Source: Chloroflexota bacterium
GTDB taxonomy: Bacteria; Chloroflexota; Anaerolineae; Aggregatilineales; Phototrophicaceae
Length of the DNA stretch: 34,736 nucleotides
NCBI GenBank assembly: GCA_011523545.1
Contig: WTGN01000019.1
Coordinates: forward strand, 1-34,736
Reading direction: 5' to 3'
Shown here: positions 26,299-34,736 of the stretch, piece after piece
How the letters are laid out: every line of letters starts with the position of its first letter
How positions within the stretch are numbered: position 1 is the first letter of the stretch
Translations under genes and position numbers: made by a program
The notes under the pieces: model-generated
Seen by the model: the letters and a program-made list of their open reading frames with translations, nothing else
Database searches by the model: none
What the model was told of the DNA's origin: nothing

Positions 26299-28656
26299 CT
26301 AGCCGCAGTTGCCTTTGGCTTCGAGATAACCATTGCTGACCCAGCCCGACGTGCCAAGATAATCCACCTTGAACCAGTCAGCCGTGCGCGCCATCGCCGT
26401 CAGCGTTGCATTGTAAGGAACAGCGCCGATGACCGCGCCGCCCGGGCTGGAGCGCAGGTTCAATATGAACTTCGTCTGCACCATGCAGCTGTCCAGATCC
26501 CATTGATTCGGAGGCATCGGCGTGGCCGCGGGCGCTGGCGGGCCGGGCAGCAGGGCGACCATGCCCGGACGGTCGATCATCGTGCAGATCATGCCGTCGA
26601 TGCCGACGGCGGGCGTGTCGTAAACCACGCGCGGCAAAGGCGTCGTGTCGATGAACTTGAAGCTGCCGCTCGTGCGGGCGAAGCAAACCTGCGTATCCGG
26701 CGGCACCCAGCCCCAAACATCAACGGCGTAAATGGCGACGGCCGCGATCGCTTCATTGCCGATCACATAGCCCGCTACCTCCTGGCACTGCGTCGTCGGC
26801 GTGATATTGCTGACGACGATGTGGGCGGGCAGGGACTTGCAAGTTGATACGCGCGGCTTGGCCGGCTGTGGCGCTGGCGCGATCGCGGCGGCGGCGTTGC
26901 CTTCGTCGCGGGCGCTACCCGACGGTCCTCCGCCGGACCGGTTGCTGGTCGTCGGCGCGCCAGACACCGTGATTTGCTGCGTGGCGCTGTTGCTGCCGGC
27001 CGTGTTGCTGACCGTCAGCGTAACGGTATAGGTCGCGGCGCTGCCGTAGGTGTGAACCGGGTTCTGCGTCGTATAATCCGCCGTGCCGTCGCCGTCGACA
27101 TCCCAACTGAAACTGAGGTTGGTGCCGGTCGAGGTCGATGTGAAACTGGCTTGATAGCGGTTGACGCTGACGGTGAAGCTGGCTGTCGGCGCGGTGTCCG
27201 GCTGCGACACCGAAATGTCCTGCGTGGCGCTGCCGCTGCCGCCGGGACCGGTCGCCGTCAGGGTTACGGTATAGCTGCCGCCGCTGGTGTAGGTATGGGA
27301 AGGCGTCTGGCCCGTGCCGGTATTGCCATCGCCGAAGTTCCAGGCATAGCTGGTGATCTGGCCGCTGGAGCCGCTGGCGTCGAAGGTCCAGGTCAGCTCG
27401 TCGTTGCCATCGACCGCCGCGGTGAAGCTGGCGTTTGGCGGCGTCGCTACCTGCACCAGCTCGAAAGAGCCGGCATCGCAATCGCCGCCTTCCGGCTGCG
27501 GACGCGGCCTTGCCAACTGATCGCTGCTGGAGAAATCGACGGGCGCGCGGCAGTTGCCAACGGAGTCGACCGCCGGGCTGTCGGCCGCCAGCGGGAAATG
27601 CGTCGTTGCGCCGGAACCGCTAGGGGAGCTTGGCAGGTTGGGATCCCCGCTCAAGTGCATATCGCCGCCGCAATTGTTGTTCTGGGAAAAGTTCTTGCGG
27701 TATCGCGTCATTGTGCCGCTGTCGACCAGCGTGCAGCCGCCCCAGATGATGCTGTTGTGCACATAGTGCTGCCCGCGTCCGAATTTTATGCTGTCCAGGG
27801 TGGTCACATGATGCAAGCGAGACGTGAGTGTGGCCCCTGTGGCTGCCACCATCGACATGCCCGCGCTGTTGCCGGTGAAGGTGCTGTCAAGGATCTTGAC
27901 ACTGGCGCTTAGGCTACCCCCGACATCAACAGAAATCGCCGCCGCTCCGGCATTGTCGACAAAGGCGCTCTTGCTGATGAGCAATTCGCCCGATGCATGA
28001 TCAATTGCGCCCGCGCCGTCGCTCCCGCCTTGCCTCACGCCGCTATTGTTGGCGAAGTAGCTTTCGCTGATTTGCAAGTGCGCGCCGCCACTGAAGATCG
28101 CCGCCCCGCCTCCTGTCGTGGTTGTGCTGGCGGTGATGCTGACCTTTGCGAGGAACAAGCTGCCGGCCTGATGATAGATGGCGCCGGCATTCGTTCCGCT
28201 CCCCTTCGTCAGCGTCATATTCCGCAAGCTGAGTGATGCGTCGTTATGGAATGTGTGGAAGAAGTATTTGGCGTTGCCGCCGTCGAAGGTGCGGTTGTTG
28301 CCATTGATGAGGATGCGGGAGGTGACCTGGGGGTATGCCGTCGTGACGTTGATGACATCAGTGCCGGCGGGCATGATGATGGTGTCCTGGGAGCCGGTGC
28401 TGTCGTCGCCGTCCTCGCAGGTGACGCCTTCGGGCTTGGCGTCGCCGTTGGCTTCTTTGATGGCATCGGCCAGGCTGCAGCCCTCGTCGACGTAGATGTC
28501 GTTGGCGAAAGCCGGCAGCGCCGCCAGCAGCAGGAAGAGCGCGATGAGGCCGAGCTTCAGGGTGGTGGCCGCGGAACCGGGGACAAGTGCGTTTAATACA
28601 TAGAAATTTTCGAAAAATCTTTTGCAGGCGGAAGCGGGGCTGGATGCTTGCGTCAT
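26299..28656 (-). CDS. Secreted beta-helix surface protein with two PKD domains and SH3b (copy 1)
   Basis: A 785-residue exported protein. A long signal region ends with hydrophobic LGLIALFLLLAALPAFA. Then comes a CSLREA-like start (CSLADAIKEANG), a right-handed beta-helix region (about 70-395) rich in Asn/Gly turns, two PKD domains (about 408-484 with NFGDGNTGTGQTPSHTY, and 489-565 with DVDGDGTADYTTQNPVHTY), a Gly/Ala/Pro linker, a conserved Cys-containing region (572-715) and a bacterial SH3b domain (FILNLRSSPGGAVIGAVPYN to the C-terminus). It is likely a cell-surface or secreted binding protein. Start choice: the ATG at 28656 has GAGGGAG upstream; an ATG at 28722 would add 22 residues, but that stretch differs from the paralogue only by amino-acid-changing substitutions, as expected of a leader. 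It is a tandem paralogue of the gene at 29156. Confidence 0.85.
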   Translation of the reverse strand: MTQASSPASACKRFFENFYVLNALVPGSAATTLKLGLIALFLLLAALPAFANDIYVDEGCSLADAIKEANGDAKPEGVTCEDGDDSTGSQDTIIMPAGTDVINVTTAYPQVTSRILINGNNRTFDGGNAKYFFHTFHNDASLSLRNMTLTKGSGTNAGAIYHQAGSLFLAKVSITASTTTTGGGAAIFSGGAHLQISESYFANNSGVRQGGSDGAGAIDHASGELLISKSAFVDNAGAAAISVDVGGSLSASVKILDSTFTGNSAGMSMVAATGATLTSRLHHVTTLDSIKFGRGQHYVHNSIIWGGCTLVDSGTMTRYRKNFSQNNNCGGDMHLSGDPNLPSSPSGSGATTHFPLAADSPAVDSVGNCRAPVDFSSSDQLARPRPQPEGGDCDAGSFELVQVATPPNASFTAAVDGNDELTWTFDASGSSGQITSYAWNFGDGNTGTGQTPSHTYTSGGSYTVTLTATGPGGSGSATQDISVSQPDTAPTASFTVSVNRYQASFTSTSTGTNLSFSWDVDGDGTADYTTQNPVHTYGSAATYTVTLTVSNTAGSNSATQQITVSGAPTTSNRSGGGPSGSARDEGNAAAAIAPAPQPAKPRVSTCKSLPAHIVVSNITPTTQCQEVAGYVIGNEAIAAVAIYAVDVWGWVPPDTQVCFARTSGSFKFIDTTPLPRVVYDTPAVGIDGMICTMIDRPGMVALLPGPPAPAATPMPPNQWDLDSCMVQTKFILNLRSSPGGAVIGAVPYNATLTAMARTADWFKVDYLGTSGWVSNGYLEAKGNCG
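26624..26940. repeat. Near-identical coding tract shared by the two surface genes (copy 1)
   Basis: 317 nt aligned without gaps to 29481-29797 with only three mismatches, coding for part of the linker and the Cys-containing domain. The adjacent 325 nt (26299-26623 against 29156-29480), also gap-free, differ at many more positions. The abrupt change suggests gene conversion. Confidence 0.85.
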
Positions 28657-28818
28657 GTCGTCTTTCTCCCTCATCTGTGGCAAGAAAACTTGCGCAATAC
28701 GCGTGCTGGCGATACGGCCCATCGCTTAAGTTCTCCTATAGGTTAGTTTTGCGGACAAGGAAACTTGCTGGCGAGTCACGCGCGACCTTGCGAAAAAGGA
28801 ACGCAAGACCGCGTATAT
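28657..28818 (-). promoter_or_regulatory. Conserved long 5' leader of surface gene copy 1
   Basis: About 160 nt between the predicted transcript start and the ATG at 28656, clearly related to the leader of copy 2. It holds a hairpin CTTGCG / CGCAAG (28787-28807) and a small stem CAAG / CTTG with a 4-nt loop that is kept in copy 2 while its loop changes. It also carries two ribosome-site-like stretches (AGGAGA near 28735 and GAGGGAG near 28668). It could be a regulatory leader or encode a short upstream peptide. Confidence 0.4.
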
Positions 28819-28925: not shown

Positions 28926-28972
28926 GCGCTTAGATCCCGCCCGCCAAATCAGAGCCTTGTAGGGGCGAGCCA
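28926..28972. repeat. Duplicated footprint of the dipeptidase 3' end (copy 2)
   Basis: Matches 26193-26239 with two mismatches, including the GCGCTTAG that ends the dipeptidase gene. No dipeptidase coding sequence precedes it here, so it marks the edge of the tandem duplication. Confidence 0.85.
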
Positions 28973-29147
28973 CCGGCTCGCCCGTACGCACGGTGGGCTT
29001 GGACCGGCGAGCCACCGGCTCGCCCGTACGCACGGTGGGCTTGGACGGGCTAGCCATTGGGTCGCCCCTACGCACGGAGGGCTTGGACGGGCTAGCCATT
29101 GGGTCGCCCCTACGCACGGTGGGCTTGGACGGGCGAGCCACCGGCCC
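28963..29147. repeat. 42-bp tandem array of the palindromic element
   Basis: Units start at 28963, 29005, 29047, 29089 and 29131 (the last partial). Each has a GGGCGAGCC-ACC-GGCTCGCCC palindrome (units 3 and 4 use GGGCTAGCC-ATT-GGGTCGCCC), then a C/GTACGCACGG-T/A-GGGCTTGGAC arm. The period is exact at 42 bp. It ends 8 nt before the stop of surface gene copy 2, so it would lie in that gene's 3' untranslated region. Confidence 0.92.
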
Positions 29148-29155
29148 GCAGCCGC

Positions 29156-31036
29156 CTAGCCGCAGTTGCCTTTCGCTTCGAGATAGCCATTGCTGACCCA
29201 GCCCGACGTGCCAAGATAATCCACCTTGAACCAGTCGGCCGTGCGCGCCATCGCCGTCAGCGTAACGTCGTAGGGCACAGCGCCGATGACCGCGCCGCCC
29301 GGGCTCGAACGCAGGTTCAAGATGAACTTCGTCCGCACCATGCAGCTGCTGAGGTTCCACTGGTTCGGGGGCATCGGCGTGGCCGCCGGCGCCGGCGGAC
29401 CCGGCAGCAGCGCCACCATGCCCGGGCGGTCGATCATCGTGCAGATCATGCCGTCAATGCCAACGGGCGCCGAATCATAGACCACGCGCGGCAAAGGCGT
29501 CGTGTCGATGAACTTGAAGCTGCCGCTCGTGCGGGCGAAGCAAACCTGCGTATCCGGCGGCACCCAGCCCCAAACATCAACGGCGTAAATGGCGACGGCC
29601 GCGATCGCTTCATTGCCGATCACATAGCCCGCTACCTCCTGGCACTGCGTCGTCGGCGTGATATTGCTGACGACGATGTGGGCGGGCAGGGACTTGCAAG
29701 TTGATACGCGCGGCTTGGCCGGCTGTGGCGCTGGCGCGATTGCGGCGGCAGCGTTGCCTTCGTCGCGGGCGCTAGCCGACGGTCCTCCGCCGGACCGCGG
29801 ATTGACGCGCGGCGCCTGCGGCCGCTCGTAAGCGCCGATGTCGCAATGGCCGCCGGCGGGCTGCGGACGGCTCGTGCCGATCTGGTCAATTGTGGTGAAG
29901 GCGGAGCAGTCGCCGGCCGCGTCGACCGCCGGGCTGTTGGCCGGCAGCATGAAATGGGTCAAATAGCTGCTGCCCCGCGGGCTGGCGGGCAGCAAGGGAT
30001 CCGCGCTCGAGGGCGAGCCGCCGCATTCGTTGACGCCGATGATATTGTTCTCGTTGGCCGCCAGCGTGACGCCCGTGCTCTTTGCACAATCGGTGGCCGC
30101 GCCGTAGAGGATACTGTTGTGCAGATAATGCGTGCCGGCGCCATACCCGACGCCGCCGCCTACAACAGTCAGGTGGTGCAAGCGAGACGTCAGCGCGCCG
30201 CCAACAGAGCTAATGGTGATGCCATCGCTATCGTCATCGACAGTGTTGCCGTAAAAGGTGCTGTTTCGTATGATGAACTCGGCGCTGTCGACCGCGCTAA
30301 CCGTGGCGCTGATCAAACTCGCACCGCTGTTGCCGGTGAAGACGCTTTTCTCGATAATCAAATCGGCATTGCGGTGATTAATCGCGCCCGTCCGGTCTGA
30401 CCCCGCGTTAGTCACCCCGCTATTGTTCAGAAAGTAGCTGTCCTTGATATTGAGATAGCCAGCGCTATAGATCGCGCCCGCGCCTTGATAGAGAAGGCCG
30501 CCATTCTTGATGGTAACCCCCGTGAGGTACAATCGGCCGCCTCTGTGGTCCAGCGCGCCGCCATTGTCTTCATGATAGCCGTCGGTCAGCGTCAGGTTTC
30601 TCAGGCGCAATTCAGCGCCGCCATCTGATGTGAAGAAATTGGTCGTGCCGCCGCCGTTGATGGTGTTGTAATTGCCCTCGATGGTGATGTGGGTGGTGAT
30701 TTCGGGATAGGTCGTCGTATTGCGGATTTCCGCTCCGCCGAAGGGTATGATGATGGTGTCGTGGCCGGCCGCGCCGGCGCCGTCGCTCCCGTCGGCGCAA
30801 GTGACGCCTTCGGGCTTGGCCAGTCCTTGCGCTTCGTTGATGGCGTCGGTCAGGGTGCAGCCGGCGCCGACGGTGATGTCGAGCGCTAAAGCCGGCAGCG
30901 CCGCCAGCAGCAGGACGAGCGCCACAAGGCCGAGCTTGAGCAAGGTGGCCGCGGAACCGGGGACAAATGCGTTTAAGGCATAGACATTGTCGAAAAATCT
31001 TTTGCGGGCGGAAGCGGGGCTGGATGATTGCGTCAT
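29156..31036 (-). CDS. Secreted beta-helix surface protein with SH3b, no PKD (copy 2)
   Basis: A 626-residue paralogue of the preceding protein. Same signal region (LGLVALVLLLAALPALA), CSLREA-like CTLTDAINEAQG, and a beta-helix region (about 70-400) with repeated strand-turn units (LRNLTLTDGYHEDNGGALDH; LNIKDSYFLNNSGVTNAGSD). It then passes directly through a short linker (RPQAPRVNPRSGGG) to the shared C-terminal region (412-626) and SH3b domain (LNLRSSPGGAVIGAVPYDVT). The two PKD domains of copy 1 are absent. The ATG at 31036 has GAGGGAG upstream; an earlier ATG at 31102 is possible. Probably surface-exposed or secreted; ligand unknown. The beta-helix halves have diverged strongly while the C-termini remain nearly identical. 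Confidence 0.85.
   Translation of the reverse strand: MTQSSSPASARKRFFDNVYALNAFVPGSAATLLKLGLVALVLLLAALPALALDITVGAGCTLTDAINEAQGLAKPEGVTCADGSDGAGAAGHDTIIIPFGGAEIRNTTTYPEITTHITIEGNYNTINGGGTTNFFTSDGGAELRLRNLTLTDGYHEDNGGALDHRGGRLYLTGVTIKNGGLLYQGAGAIYSAGYLNIKDSYFLNNSGVTNAGSDRTGAINHRNADLIIEKSVFTGNSGASLISATVSAVDSAEFIIRNSTFYGNTVDDDSDGITISSVGGALTSRLHHLTVVGGGVGYGAGTHYLHNSILYGAATDCAKSTGVTLAANENNIIGVNECGGSPSSADPLLPASPRGSSYLTHFMLPANSPAVDAAGDCSAFTTIDQIGTSRPQPAGGHCDIGAYERPQAPRVNPRSGGGPSASARDEGNAAAAIAPAPQPAKPRVSTCKSLPAHIVVSNITPTTQCQEVAGYVIGNEAIAAVAIYAVDVWGWVPPDTQVCFARTSGSFKFIDTTPLPRVVYDSAPVGIDGMICTMIDRPGMVALLPGPPAPAATPMPPNQWNLSSCMVRTKFILNLRSSPGGAVIGAVPYDVTLTAMARTADWFKVDYLGTSGWVSNGYLEAKGNCG
29481..29797. repeat. 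Near-identical coding tract (copy 2)
   Basis: Partner of 26624-26940; three mismatches in 317 nt and no gaps. Confidence 0.85.
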
Positions 31037-31204
31037 GTCGTCTTTCTCCCTCAACTGTGGCAAGAAAACTTGCGCAATATGCGTGCTGGCGATACGTCTC
31101 ATCACTTAAGTTCTCCTATTAATTAATTCTGTAAACAAGGACACTTGCTGTCGATTCGCGCGAGAACTTGCGTTAAAAGAACGAAATCCCGTATATGTCA
31201 TGAA

Positions 31205-31501: not shown

Positions 31502-31725
31502 CCGGCGGGCGATATATCCACTTCCCGCGCGTACGGGCGAGCCGGTGGCTCGCCCCAATTTCCCGCGCGTACGGGCTAGCCGGTGGCTCGCCCCAATTTC
31601 CCGCGCTCCGGCGGGCGATATATCCACTTCCCGCGCTCCGGCGGGCGATATATCCACTTCCCGCGCTCCGGCGGGCGATATATCCACTTCCCGCGCGTAC
31701 GGGCGAGCCGGTGGCTCGCCCCTAC
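31502..31725. repeat. Composite tandem array of two unit types upstream of leuS
   Basis: Two units alternate in the order A-B-B-A-A-A-B. A is 30 bp (CCGGCGGGCGATATATCC then ACTTCCCGCGC), at 31502, 31608, 31638 and 31668. B is 38 bp (GTAC, palindrome GGGCGAGCC-GGT-GGCTCGCCC, then CAATTTCCCGCGC), at 31531, 31569 and 31697 (the last lacks the tail and ends in CTAC). All units share the TTCCCGCGC junction. The palindrome is the reverse complement of that in the array at 28963. The array ends 68 nt before leuS. Confidence 0.9.
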
Positions 31726-31793: not shown

Positions 31794-34682
31794 ATGCAAA
31801 TGAGTGAAACCTATCAACCGCACTCGATCGAAGTGAAATGGCAGAAGCGTTGGGAAGAGAGCCAGCTCTATCGCTCGAAAGTGGATTGGAGCAAGCCCAA
31901 GCACTATGCCCTGACCATGCTGCCTTATCCGTCGGGCGATCTACACATCGGCCACTGGTTCGCCATGACGCCGTCAGACGCGCGCGCCCGCTGGATGCGC
32001 ATGAAGGGCTACAATGTGCTCTTCCCAATGGGCTTTGACGCCTTTGGCTTGCCGGCCGAGCAAGCGGCCATCTCCAACAACATCCACCCCTGGAAGTGGA
32101 CTTACGCCAATATCGAACGCATGCGCGAGCAGCTGCGCAGTATGGGCGCCATGTTCGATTGGGAGCGGGAAGCCATCTCCTGCACGCCGGAGTATTACAA
32201 GTGGTCGGAGTGGTTTTTCAAGAAATTCTATGAGCATGGCCTGGCGTACCGCGGCGCGGCCCTGGTGAACTGGTCGGAGACTTTGCAGACTGTCCTGGCC
32301 AACGAGCAGGTCATCGACGGCAAAGACGAGCGCATGGGTCAGCCGGTCGTGCACAAGATGATGGAGCAGTGGTTCTTTCGGATCACCCGCTACGCCGACG
32401 AGCTGCTGAACTTCGCGCCCTTGGATTGGCCCGAATCGATCAAGATCATGCAGACAAACTGGATCGGCCGCAGCGAAGGCGCTCGCGCGATATTCTATAC
32501 TGCTGAAAGCGCGCCTGGCGATGCCGCTTCCACAAATGCTGAAAGCGCGCCTGGCGAGGCCGCATCCACAAATGCAGAAGGCGTGTACGGGCGAGCCGGT
32601 GGCTCGCCCTCGTCCGGAAAGGCCGGCCATCCCATCGAAATCTATACCACGCGGCCGGACACGCTCTGGGGCGCGACATTCATGGTGCTGGCGCCCGAGC
32701 ATGACCTGGTCGAGACAATCACAACCGCGGAGCAGCGGCCGGCGGTGGAAGCTTACATTGAAGAGACGGCCTTGGAGAGCGAAATCGAGCGCATGGTCGA
32801 AGATCGCGAGAAGACCGGCGTCTTCACCGGCGCATACGCCATCAACCCGGTCAACGGCGAACGCATCCCGATCTGGATCGCTGATTATGTGATGATCACC
32901 TACGGGACGGGCGCCATCATGGCTGTGCCGGCGCATGACCAGCGCGACTTTGAATTTGCGCGGGCGCAGGGTCTGCCGGTCCGGGTGGTGATCCAGCCCG
33001 AGGAGGCGGAAGCGCTGGATGGCGCTACCATGAGCGCGGCTTATGATGGCCCCGGGCGGATGGTCAATTCGGATGCGATGGATGGGGTGGAAAGCACATG
33101 GGACAAAGGGCGCAAGAACCCGGCCATCAATCGCGTCATCGACTGGCTGGAAGCGACGGGCAAGGGCGAGGAGGCGGTCAATTATCGCCTGCGTGACTGG
33201 CTAATCAGCCGCCAGCGTTATTGGGGCAGCCCGATACCGATGATCTTCGACGGCGACGCGGTGATACCGGTTGAGGATGAGAAGCTGCCGGTGGAATTGC
33301 CGGAAGACGTCGACTTCATGCCGACCGGCCGCAGCCCGCTGACCTATCACGAGCCCTTCTACAAAGTGGACGAGAGGCGCCGCCGCGAGACCGATACGCT
33401 TGATACCTTCATGTGCTCGTCCTGGTATCAGTTGCGTTATCTGTCGCCCCAATGCGAGAGCGCGCCTTTCGACGCCGAGGAAGCCGCTTACTGGCTGCCG
33501 GTCGATGTCTATACCGGCGGGGCCGAGCACGCGGTGATGCACCTGCTGTACACGCGATTTTTCACCAAAGCGCTGCGCGATATCGGCCTGTTTGATGACG
33601 CGGCCGAAGCGATGCGCCGACATGGACGCGACCCCGCCAGCGCCTTTGACGAGCCGATGACGGTGCTGCGCAATCAGGGACAGGTTCTGGGCGGCGAGCG
33701 GCAGGGCGACTTCGTGCTCTGCAGCGGCAGGCAGGTCGGGGGCAGGTTGCTGGCGGACCGCGTCGAGGTGGTCGATTGGAATCAAGTGCCGCCTGGTTTC
33801 ACCGGCGTCTTCGGCGAGATCGCCCATCGCACCGAGAATGTCTTGCATGTCGATATGGGGGGCATCACGCAATTCGTCGATGTGCAGCCCGACGCCGAGA
33901 TCATCATTCCCGATATCGCCGGCGAGAACCACGTGAATCAACTGCGCCATCACCTGGAAATCCAGCGCATGTCCAAGAGCAAGGGCAATGTAGTCAACCC
34001 GGATGAGCTGGTGGCGAAATACGGCGCCGATGTCGTGCGCTGCTACCTGATGTTCAACTTTGATTGGCAGAAAGGCGGCCCCTGGAACGAAAACAATATC
34101 AAGGGCCCGCAAGGCTGGCTGGGGGATGTTTACGAGATTGCGGCCGCCGGCGCGCCCGGGGCGCCTGGCGACCCATCAGCCGAGCGCGATATCGAGCGCA
34201 AACTGCATCAGACGATCGCCGTGGTCAACCGCGGCCTGGAGGAATTCAGCTTCAACACCGCCATCGCCGAGCAGATGAAGTTCAAAAACGCCCTTAAAGC
34301 GGCTTTGCGCGCGGGCGGCATCGGCGCGGAGGTCTGGCATGCGGTGATGAATCAGGCGATACGCTTGCTGGCGCCCTTTGCGCCACACATCGCGGAGGAA
34401 CTTTGGGCGATGCTGGGTTGGGAATACAGCGTGCACAGCCAGCCCTGGCCCGAATATGATGCCGTAAAAGCGCGCGAGGAGCAGGTTGATCTGGTGGTGA
34501 TGATCAATGGCAAGCCACGCGAGACGATCTCGGTGGCTGTCGATATCGCGCGGGAACGGGCGCAGGAGCTGGCTTTGGCGAGCGGGGCCGCCCAGCGCTT
34601 CCTGGATGGCAAAGCGCCGCGGCGCACGATATTCATCCCCGGACGAAATGGGACTGACCCGAAGGTGAATATTGTCGTTTAG
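31794..34682 (+). CDS. leuS: Leucyl-tRNA synthetase with repeat-derived insertion
   Basis: A 962-residue class I enzyme charging tRNA-Leu with leucine. HIGH motif at 51-54 (SGDLHIGHWFAMTPSDARAR); CP1 editing domain starting near 224 (IGRSEGARAIFYT) with the threonine-rich TTRPDTLWGAT and the conserved YGTGAIMAVPAHDQRD; catalytic return at DWLISRQRYWGSPIPM; KMSKS as RMSKS at 725-729 (QRMSKSKGNVVNPDEL); anticodon-binding helices and a C-terminal domain at the end. Residues about 237-277 are an extra low-complexity segment: two 12-residue repeats AESAPG(D/E)AASTN, then a translated palindromic repeat (YGRAGGSPSS). It falls in a loop before the IEIYTTRPDT strand, where the family varies, so the enzyme is likely functional. 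The ATG at 31794 has AAGGA 6 nt upstream; the ATG at 31800 is equally possible. Confidence 0.96.
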   Translation: MQMSETYQPHSIEVKWQKRWEESQLYRSKVDWSKPKHYALTMLPYPSGDLHIGHWFAMTPSDARARWMRMKGYNVLFPMGFDAFGLPAEQAAISNNIHPWKWTYANIERMREQLRSMGAMFDWEREAISCTPEYYKWSEWFFKKFYEHGLAYRGAALVNWSETLQTVLANEQVIDGKDERMGQPVVHKMMEQWFFRITRYADELLNFAPLDWPESIKIMQTNWIGRSEGARAIFYTAESAPGDAASTNAESAPGEAASTNAEGVYGRAGGSPSSGKAGHPIEIYTTRPDTLWGATFMVLAPEHDLVETITTAEQRPAVEAYIEETALESEIERMVEDREKTGVFTGAYAINPVNGERIPIWIADYVMITYGTGAIMAVPAHDQRDFEFARAQGLPVRVVIQPEEAEALDGATMSAAYDGPGRMVNSDAMDGVESTWDKGRKNPAINRVIDWLEATGKGEEAVNYRLRDWLISRQRYWGSPIPMIFDGDAVIPVEDEKLPVELPEDVDFMPTGRSPLTYHEPFYKVDERRRRETDTLDTFMCSSWYQLRYLSPQCESAPFDAEEAAYWLPVDVYTGGAEHAVMHLLYTRFFTKALRDIGLFDDAAEAMRRHGRDPASAFDEPMTVLRNQGQVLGGERQGDFVLCSGRQVGGRLLADRVEVVDWNQVPPGFTGVFGEIAHRTENVLHVDMGGITQFVDVQPDAEIIIPDIAGENHVNQLRHHLEIQRMSKSKGNVVNPDELVAKYGADVVRCYLMFNFDWQKGGPWNENNIKGPQGWLGDVYEIAAAGAPGAPGDPSAERDIERKLHQTIAVVNRGLEEFSFNTAIAEQMKFKNALKAALRAGGIGAEVWHAVMNQAIRLLAPFAPHIAEELWAMLGWEYSVHSQPWPEYDAVKAREEQVDLVVMINGKPRETISVAVDIARERAQELALASGAAQRFLDGKAPRRTIFIPGRNGTDPKVNIVV
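32502..32573 (+). repeat. 36-bp in-frame coding tandem repeat inside leuS
   Basis: Two adjacent 36-bp units (32502-32537 and 32538-32573), differing at two positions and coding AESAPGDAASTN and AESAPGEAASTN, followed by the start of a third (GCAGAAGGC). Confidence 0.92.
32585..32609 (+). repeat. Palindromic element inserted in frame in leuS
   Basis: GTAC followed by GGGCGAGCC-GGT-GGCTCGCCC (core 32589-32609), identical over 25 nt to the B unit of the upstream array and in the same orientation. It is read as GRAGGSP in the leuS frame. Confidence 0.93.
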
Positions 34683-34736
34683 CCAGGAGAACGGAAGCCC
34701 CTCCCTGCGCCCGTTCCCGCGCGATATCGACAGCCA

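Follow-up and report, generated by a model that had tools for sequence, protein, structure and literature searches.

The leuS gene of a Chloroflexota bacterium carries, inside an intact leucyl-tRNA synthetase (LeuRS), an exact in-frame copy of a palindromic repeat which is spread throughout the same genome. The gene lies on contig C49, which is the window, i.e., the whole stretch of 34,736 bases analyzed here; the genome (G000) comprises 4,541,718 bases in 105 contigs. The palindrome stands near the end of an insert of 38 residues in the connective peptide 1 (CP1) editing domain. We consider it likely that this insert, ending in a copy of a repetitive extragenic palindrome (REP), was placed by REP transposition and is tolerated in a turn of CP1 that is predicted to be disordered. 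The features in question are:

31794..34682, + strand: leuS, leucyl-tRNA synthetase, 962 codons and stop, or with a start at ATG 31800
32502..32615, + strand: in-frame insert, residues 237-274 (38 residues), absent in most relatives
32502..32537, + strand (direct-repeat match 32501-32536): 36-bp unit 1, reads AESAPGDAASTN
32538..32573, + strand (direct-repeat match 32537-32572): 36-bp unit 2, reads AESAPGEAASTN
32574..32609, + strand: 12-residue segment AEGVYGRAGGSP, the last 25 bases of which are the palindromic unit
32585..32588, + strand: GTAC tag of the repeat
32589..32609, + strand: palindrome core GGGCGAGCC-GGT-GGCTCGCCC, 9-bp stem and 3-nt loop, read GRAGGSP

The LeuRS looks intact. The enzyme is full-length, HIGH is found at residue 51 and RMSKS at residue 725, and the protein matches the leuS_bact equivalog with 884.6 bits at a cut-off of 548.4. 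By LeuRS, the named relatives are metagenome-assembled genomes of Chloroflexota and Anaerolineae, the nearest at 90%, the window's own record possibly being excluded. In the leuS frame the insert reads, in this order, AESAPGDAASTN, AESAPGEAASTN, AEGVYGRAGGSP and two final serines; the two 36-bp units are 94% identical to each other. The initial annotation had noticed the 25-nt unit GTACGGGCGAGCCGGTGGCTCGCCC unchanged at 32585-32609, in frame and after two 36-bp repeats, and the match is indeed exact.

The repeat family and its place in LeuRS

A search of the genome with the 21-nt core GGGCGAGCCGGTGGCTCGCCC returned 64 exact copies, where 3e-5 are expected from base composition; the backward control had no match. 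With up to two mismatches there are 162 forward and 168 reverse matches, some near-palindromic copies being counted on both strands. The copies were studied in stretches around 100 listed places, together 390,542 bases including the window. In these, 126 copies were found at a tolerance of two mismatches: 64 have none, 40 have one, and 22 have two. Judged by the 63 exact copies with full flanks, conservation spans about -6 to +20, i.e., the element has about 27-29 nt. The four bases ahead of the core are GTAC in 48, GTAG in 15 and GTAT in one of the 64 exact copies. The element is open in all six frames. The family is present in 33 of 34 genomes of the genus (none in G033) and, outside the genus, in three of 27 (G041, G047, G060).

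These are the properties of a REP. The 21-nt core is a high-copy palindrome within the 20-40 bp size range, and the copies are mostly outside genes, as 98 of 126 are free of any open reading frame (ORF) of at least 150 aa. A stem of 9 bp and a loop of 3 nt fall within the ranges listed for the GTAG REP super-family (stem 5-13 bp, loop 2-20 nt; PMC3733652, Table 1).

The remaining 28 copies lie under 30 distinct ORFs: leuS, one ORF antisense to leuS, and 28 others. A Pfam scan took 27 of the 29 non-leuS ORFs, two in L149 with masked bases being left out. A domain was found in four (rhodanese, cyclophilin, TIM barrel, and aldo/keto reductase), and in all four the copy falls in an N- or C-terminal stretch that the domain does not reach. 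With a Pfam match as the criterion, leuS is the sole place among the 126 copies at which a recognizable protein was found on both sides of the repeat.

The initial annotation had also considered an assembly error at 32500-32610. Either this or a chance palindrome in a coding sequence is highly improbable. The contig ends 54 bases past leuS, and a 42-nt inverted repeat, 90% complementary, links 34534-34575 in leuS with 34695-34736, the last 42 bases of the contig, possibly a contig-end artefact. Against an error or chance stand, however, the 64 exact copies in the genome and the homologous inserts in five other leuS genes or proteins (see below). The database cluster that this exact protein represents, formed at 90% identity, counts two contigs, one of them with 273,002 bases as compared with 34,736 for the window; an identical insert is not thereby proven.

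The part of LeuRS which accommodates the insert was modeled. The full-length model was poor (mean predicted local distance difference test, pLDDT, of 56.8), and a CP1-only fragment with a mean pLDDT of 83.1 was used. The insert corresponds to fragment residues 28-65; residues 37-64 are coil with pLDDT below 50, and the flanking strands are at 17-28 and 71-76. Among solved folds Thermus LeuRS match best; the model also covers the editing domain of S. pneumoniae, for which the template-modeling (TM) score is 0.92. Alignments with the solved Thermus and E. coli chains show a short stretch at the same place, between (N)WIGRSEG and TTRPDT. The insert, mapped on this model as the initial annotation had suggested, is predicted to occupy a disordered turn between strands of the CP1 editing domain.

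Distribution and history of the insert within the genus

A LeuRS search matched all 61 genomes, some via fragments or paralogues only. Within the genus loops were read in L031-L060 except L059, plus L143. Of these 30 loops 27 have 31 residues; the loops of G000 and G013 have 69 and that of G018 has 57. A set of 121 proteins (120 listed ones plus P0001, translated from G018) gave a similar picture: 31 residues in 90, 30 in 27, 57 in two, and 69 and 45 in one each. The 30-residue loops all belong to P0086 or later entries, outside the 84-row tree described below. The insert thus is lineage-specific, as initially supposed, and amounts to 38 residues beyond the usual 31.

Homologous inserts were found in five further leuS genes or proteins, i.e., G013, G018, P0019, P0096, and P0122. 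P0096 reads TAESAYGRAGGSPSTEDGGHP, 14 additional residues with the repeat and without any 36-bp unit. P0019 has one unit (+26 residues), and P0122 has three or more, its protein model beginning within the insert. The measurable sizes of +14, +26, and +38 thus differ in steps of 12 residues, which equal one 36-bp unit. YGRAGGS is unchanged in all six carriers; the units vary. FRTA to the left of the insert is common to G013, G018, P0019, and P0096. A search with the insert region returned five proteins, P0002, P0019, P0096, P0122, and P0123; the last has a different, proline-rich type of insert in the same loop. P0096 does not end at the C-terminus of LeuRS but goes on in a frame whose sequence looks like translated REPs. 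In the leuS genes of G044 and G057 neighboring matches are separated by about 370 bases (near query residues 419-443) and 170 bases (near 409-412), respectively, which suggests insertions elsewhere in LeuRS.

A quick tree of 84 rows was calculated with the loop excluded. P0096 was trimmed to 700 residues, P0122 contributed only its post-loop part, and G018 fills 26% of the columns; near copies (P0002, P0010, P0017, P0028, P0030, P0035, P0044) as well as distant or long sequences (P0061-P0083 and P0075) were left out. The six carriers are dispersed among empty genes, requiring six changes, five of which are forced by well-supported branches. A single clade of carriers is rejected on this tree; it costs 575 log-likelihood units with a p-value of 1.62e-5 in the approximately unbiased test.

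The 36-bp units are homologous among G000, G013, and G018. Over their last 24 nt, units from different lineages agree at 16-21 positions, a value equaled by at most 19 of 2000 shuffles. Compared with the repeat the same 24 nt agree at 6-10 positions, equaled by 323-1588 of 2000 shuffles. The idea that the units are decayed REPs arose because an intergenic six-copy REP array in the same genome (C58:43314-43494, L145) has an equal 36-bp period; for the last 24 bases, alike across lineages and unlike the repeat, it is rejected. The first 12 bases of the units resemble the 12 bases before the repeat at 8-11 of 12 positions, as expected if the units were duplicated beside it. In a search of 34 genomes the unit part was matched, among the matches listed, only in G000, G013, and G018.

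The homology of the units implies that the unit-bearing inserts share an origin. For this reason one old insertion in the genus followed by many losses is most likely, yet unproven. The repeat would have entered the loop first, as in P0096 (+14), and the 36-bp unit would then have multiplied beside it (+26, +38). Having arisen once, the insert may have been lost many times. Slippage could, e.g., have occurred between short direct repeats that border it, and the exact loop of 31 residues would then be regained. In G013 and G018 ACCG stands at both ends of the insert, and a deletion between such repeats should yield exactly 31 residues.

Several observations weigh against a single insertion with many losses. 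On the resolved 113-row tree, the only one for which this was counted, a single gain requires 19 losses. Imprecise loss was not seen, as 78 of 78 empty rows of the 84-row tree have exactly 31 residues. The repeat codons are identical in all three lineages with DNA, whereas the units of G000 and G013 differ at 9-10 of 36 nt. This identity would fit separate recent insertions or selection, although its estimated probability by chance is no lower than 0.0135, and two of 110 other 7-codon stretches are equally identical. Directly left of the insert, the 18 nt of G000 lack a good match in the ten genes compared (11-13 of 18), and those of G013 are slightly nearer to G018 and G011 (17 of 18) than to its sister G029 (16 of 18). 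An imported short tract could explain both.

The proposed mode of entry has its own difficulty. REPs would have spread via a RAYT (REP-associated tyrosine transposase) type enzyme, and RAYT genes are flanked by GTAG palindromes according to PMC3733652. The genome of the window does have a RAYT-like ORF (C74:1157-1864, L214) with GTAG-GGGCTTGCC-TT-GGCAAGCCC palindromes at both ends (stretch C74:1126-1864). One of these palindromes falls within the listed ORF, whose true start is therefore probably further in. The gene scores 66.2 bits, below the NCBIfam cut-off of 80, and the GGGCTTGCC arms form a stem other than that of the leuS REP; consequently, no transposase is shown for the leuS family.

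Would the same REP have inserted repeatedly, into the same site, strand, and frame in six lineages? This presupposes a target preference, with the short loops always having been empty, and we regard it as unlikely. It agrees with the patchy tree in which carriers are nested among empty genes, with the identical repeat codons, with the repeat alone in P0096, and with the uniform 31 residues of the empty rows. Equally, the flanks resemble those of empty sisters. Compared with G011, the left flank of G000 is identical in 27 of 27 nt, followed by 12 of 18 directly at the insert, and the right flank in 21 of 21 and 57 of 60; for G013 and G029 the values are 26 of 27 and 16 of 18 on the left, and 18 of 18 and 57 of 60 on the right. 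What repeated insertion fails to accommodate are the 36-bp units, homologous among G000, G013, and G018 and, among the matches listed, confined to them.

Another explanation is a single origin followed by gene conversion between species that was nearly confined to the insert. A homologous insert on an incongruent gene tree is what such short-tract transfer would produce; the unmatched 18 nt of G000, the greater likeness of those of G013 to the carrier G018 than to its sister, and the shared FRTA point in the same direction. Yet in G000 and G013 any imported flank would reach at most about 18 nt to the left of the insert, and to its right there is none. Further, the 9-10 differences per 36 nt between the units of G000 and G013 equal or exceed those of most flanks (18-20%), so a transfer was not recent. 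It is doubtful, with some chance of being right, that the insert traveled in this manner.

Lastly, the hairpin or the peptide might be functional in leuS, e.g., in mRNA stability, editing, or tRNA contact. The constancy of YGRAGGS in six of six carriers despite varying units and the unchanged synonymous sites in three of three lineages would suit a selected element. Its absence from most relatives, the other repeats and lengths in the same turn elsewhere, and the disorder predicted by the model speak against it, and we give this option little credence. In G013 and G018 the stem has one G-T in place of a G-C, which still can pair in RNA and says little on selection.

Other repeats in the same turn across the Anaerolineae

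Beyond the genus, other genome-wide repeats recur in the same CP1 turn. From 80 loci, 61 of the 62 loops of L081-L142 were read; they mostly have 29-32 residues, several being long. The loop of L096 holds GTAGGGGCGCAATATATTGCGCCCCTAC, which occurs at 52 places in its own genome at up to three mismatches. This palindrome opens like the REP of the window (GTA-GGGCG); it is a second GTAG-type palindrome and is not counted as an unrelated kind. L100 and L109 hold a CCTCACCCC...CCCCTCTCCC palindrome; at up to one mismatch it occurs at 60 places in the genome of the former and at 55 in that of the latter, and the places listed include the copies in leuS (G062:C23:138527 and G063:C7:4395). In L095 there seems to be a degenerate, reversed CCCCTCTCCC palindrome, judged by eye only.

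A survey of the class matched 231 of 249 genomes, the rows being listed in part. From 24 chosen for long or split matches 22 loops were read; none was readable in L248 and L249. G208 has a 73-residue loop identical to that of L109. Four further genomes carry heptamer arrays. Cyanobacteria and other bacteria have similar arrays of short tandem heptamers, which are known as intergenic; those found here are read in frame inside LeuRS. In G128 and G211 the heptamer is CCCAATA, and within 31-32 kb the commonest 11-mer has 17 and 4 occurrences, respectively, apart from those in leuS. ACTCCTG heptamers of G254 gave 55 genomic hits, with overlaps and the own leuS counted, and none in the control, and ATTACTG-like heptamers of G249 have 45, own leuS counted, against 14 in the backward control; for both, an excess was not seen in smaller k-mer samples. 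A 27-mer from the loop of G076 was found only in its own leuS and is not confirmed as a genome repeat. For the loop inserts of G256, G241, G292, G153, G123, and G227 small samples did not support such a status. Other loops of 37-43 residues mostly resemble the ordinary longer loop of the family.

On a tree of 74 genes the nine repeat-bearing ones, including L095, require eight changes, six of which are forced. Perfect hairpins with a stem of at least 9 bp number 14 in 86 of 88 leuS genes, and four of them are in this loop, which makes up 1.9% of the sequence. The expectation is 0.27, with a tail probability of 1.2e-4, the genes not being independent. Three of the four are the inserted repeats; the fourth, in L111, is native. 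With other stem limits the loop is less overrepresented, having 4 of 26 hairpins at 8 bp and 2 of 5 at 10 bp.

Conceivably, the turn is a steered landing pad across the Anaerolineae which at least three unrelated kinds of repeats (GTAC/GTAG palindromes, CCCCTCTCCC palindromes, and heptamer arrays) repeatedly enter in frame and leave precisely, guided, e.g., by some property of leuS related to replication or to single-stranded DNA. We consider this rather improbable. If true, an essential enzyme would continuously sample repeat-coded peptides. The explanation that we prefer, REP transposition into a tolerant place, would do without targeting: repeats may land widely and persist where open codons join such a place. 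They can persist as open codons because none of the six frames of the REP contains a stop codon, and they presumably survive in this turn because it tolerates insertions.

A single loop of an essential enzyme thus preserves REPs, other palindromes, and heptamer arrays that separate lineages have captured in frame. The way in which scattered repeats turn into protein can be seen here, with empty sister genes for comparison. Whether repeat insertions are neutral survivors, targeted events, or useful becomes testable on one small, well-understood domain.

Relation to known elements and the surroundings of leuS

Intragenic REPs as such are already known. The initial annotation took in-frame palindromes to be known mainly from Rickettsia; this does not hold, as PMC3733652 (section 15) reports intragenic copies of REPs from several species. 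Copies of REPs with a GTAG tag include some in tRNA synthetase genes of X. oryzae, E. lithoralis, and S. alaskensis (Di Nocera 2013, PMC3733652), and in the accessible parts of that paper a shared intragenic site is reported only for recB of two Xanthomonas. The leuS family, insofar as those parts describe GTAG REPs, resembles them in being a short, high-copy palindrome with a one-sided GTA-tag, mostly extragenic and single or arrayed. It differs in that the tag is mostly GTAC (48 of 64; GTAG in 15 of 64), that the host belongs to the Chloroflexota, and that several kinds of repeats are found again and again in one and the same loop of a gene.

The annotation's comparison with Rickettsia palindromic elements is apt regarding the process, i.e., a genome-wide palindrome in frame in a conserved gene. 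Those elements, too, are palindromes that lie in frame within genes for conserved proteins, where they probably are tolerated. In the accessible descriptions they have 105-146 bp (PMC2229807) or about 150 bp and affect many genes (PMC10969869, PMC2229807); the small RPE-4 and RPE-6 carry a CGTC tag (PMC3733652). Here, in contrast, the smallest insert has 42 nt, the element of about 27-29 nt has a GTAC/GTAG tag, and one of 126 copies is inside a recognizable protein, which sets it apart from the Rickettsia elements as far as those descriptions reach. ERIC (enterobacterial repetitive intergenic consensus) and Correia miniature inverted-repeat transposable elements likewise are small non-autonomous repeats fused in frame to genes (Delihas 2007, PMC2229807), yet, as described there, have about 100-200 bp with terminal inverted repeats and are not REP-like. 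Among the titles returned by a literature search, with subscription papers mostly outside its reach, none concerned recurrent or other repeats of the LeuRS loop, nor did any deal with REPs inside proteins of Chloroflexota; for LTPGPSP/GRGE the search returned nothing relevant.

Further copies lie near leuS in the window:

31531..31555, + strand: intergenic copy upstream of leuS, exact
31569..31593, + strand: intergenic copy upstream of leuS, one mismatch
31697..31721, + strand: intergenic copy upstream of leuS, exact
28963..28987, - strand: copy behind ORF 29159-31105, exact, in an array with 42-bp spacing
29005..29029, - strand: copy with one mismatch in the same 28963-29151 array

The unit had been said to occur three times just upstream of leuS. 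Two of these copies are exact (31531 and 31697), and the third (31569) counts only if one mismatch is allowed. A derivation of the leuS copy from those just upstream is not needed, G013 and G018 having no repeat within 600 bp upstream at up to five mismatches. These two genomes partly fit what the initial annotation had named as contrary evidence, i.e., relatives with the insert and without the intergenic repeats; the family itself is present in their genomes.

Interleaved with the REPs 5' of leuS is a 30-bp tandem unit with GGGCGATATATCC (31507-31519 and 31613-31685; three consecutive copies plus one). Two adjacent large minus-strand ORFs, 26302-28722 and 29159-31105, have SH3_3 domains and very similar C-terminal parts and apparently are a pair of paralogues; the former has PKD besides SH3_3. 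Behind the second one, at 28963-29151, five REP-like palindromes follow each other at 42-bp spacing.

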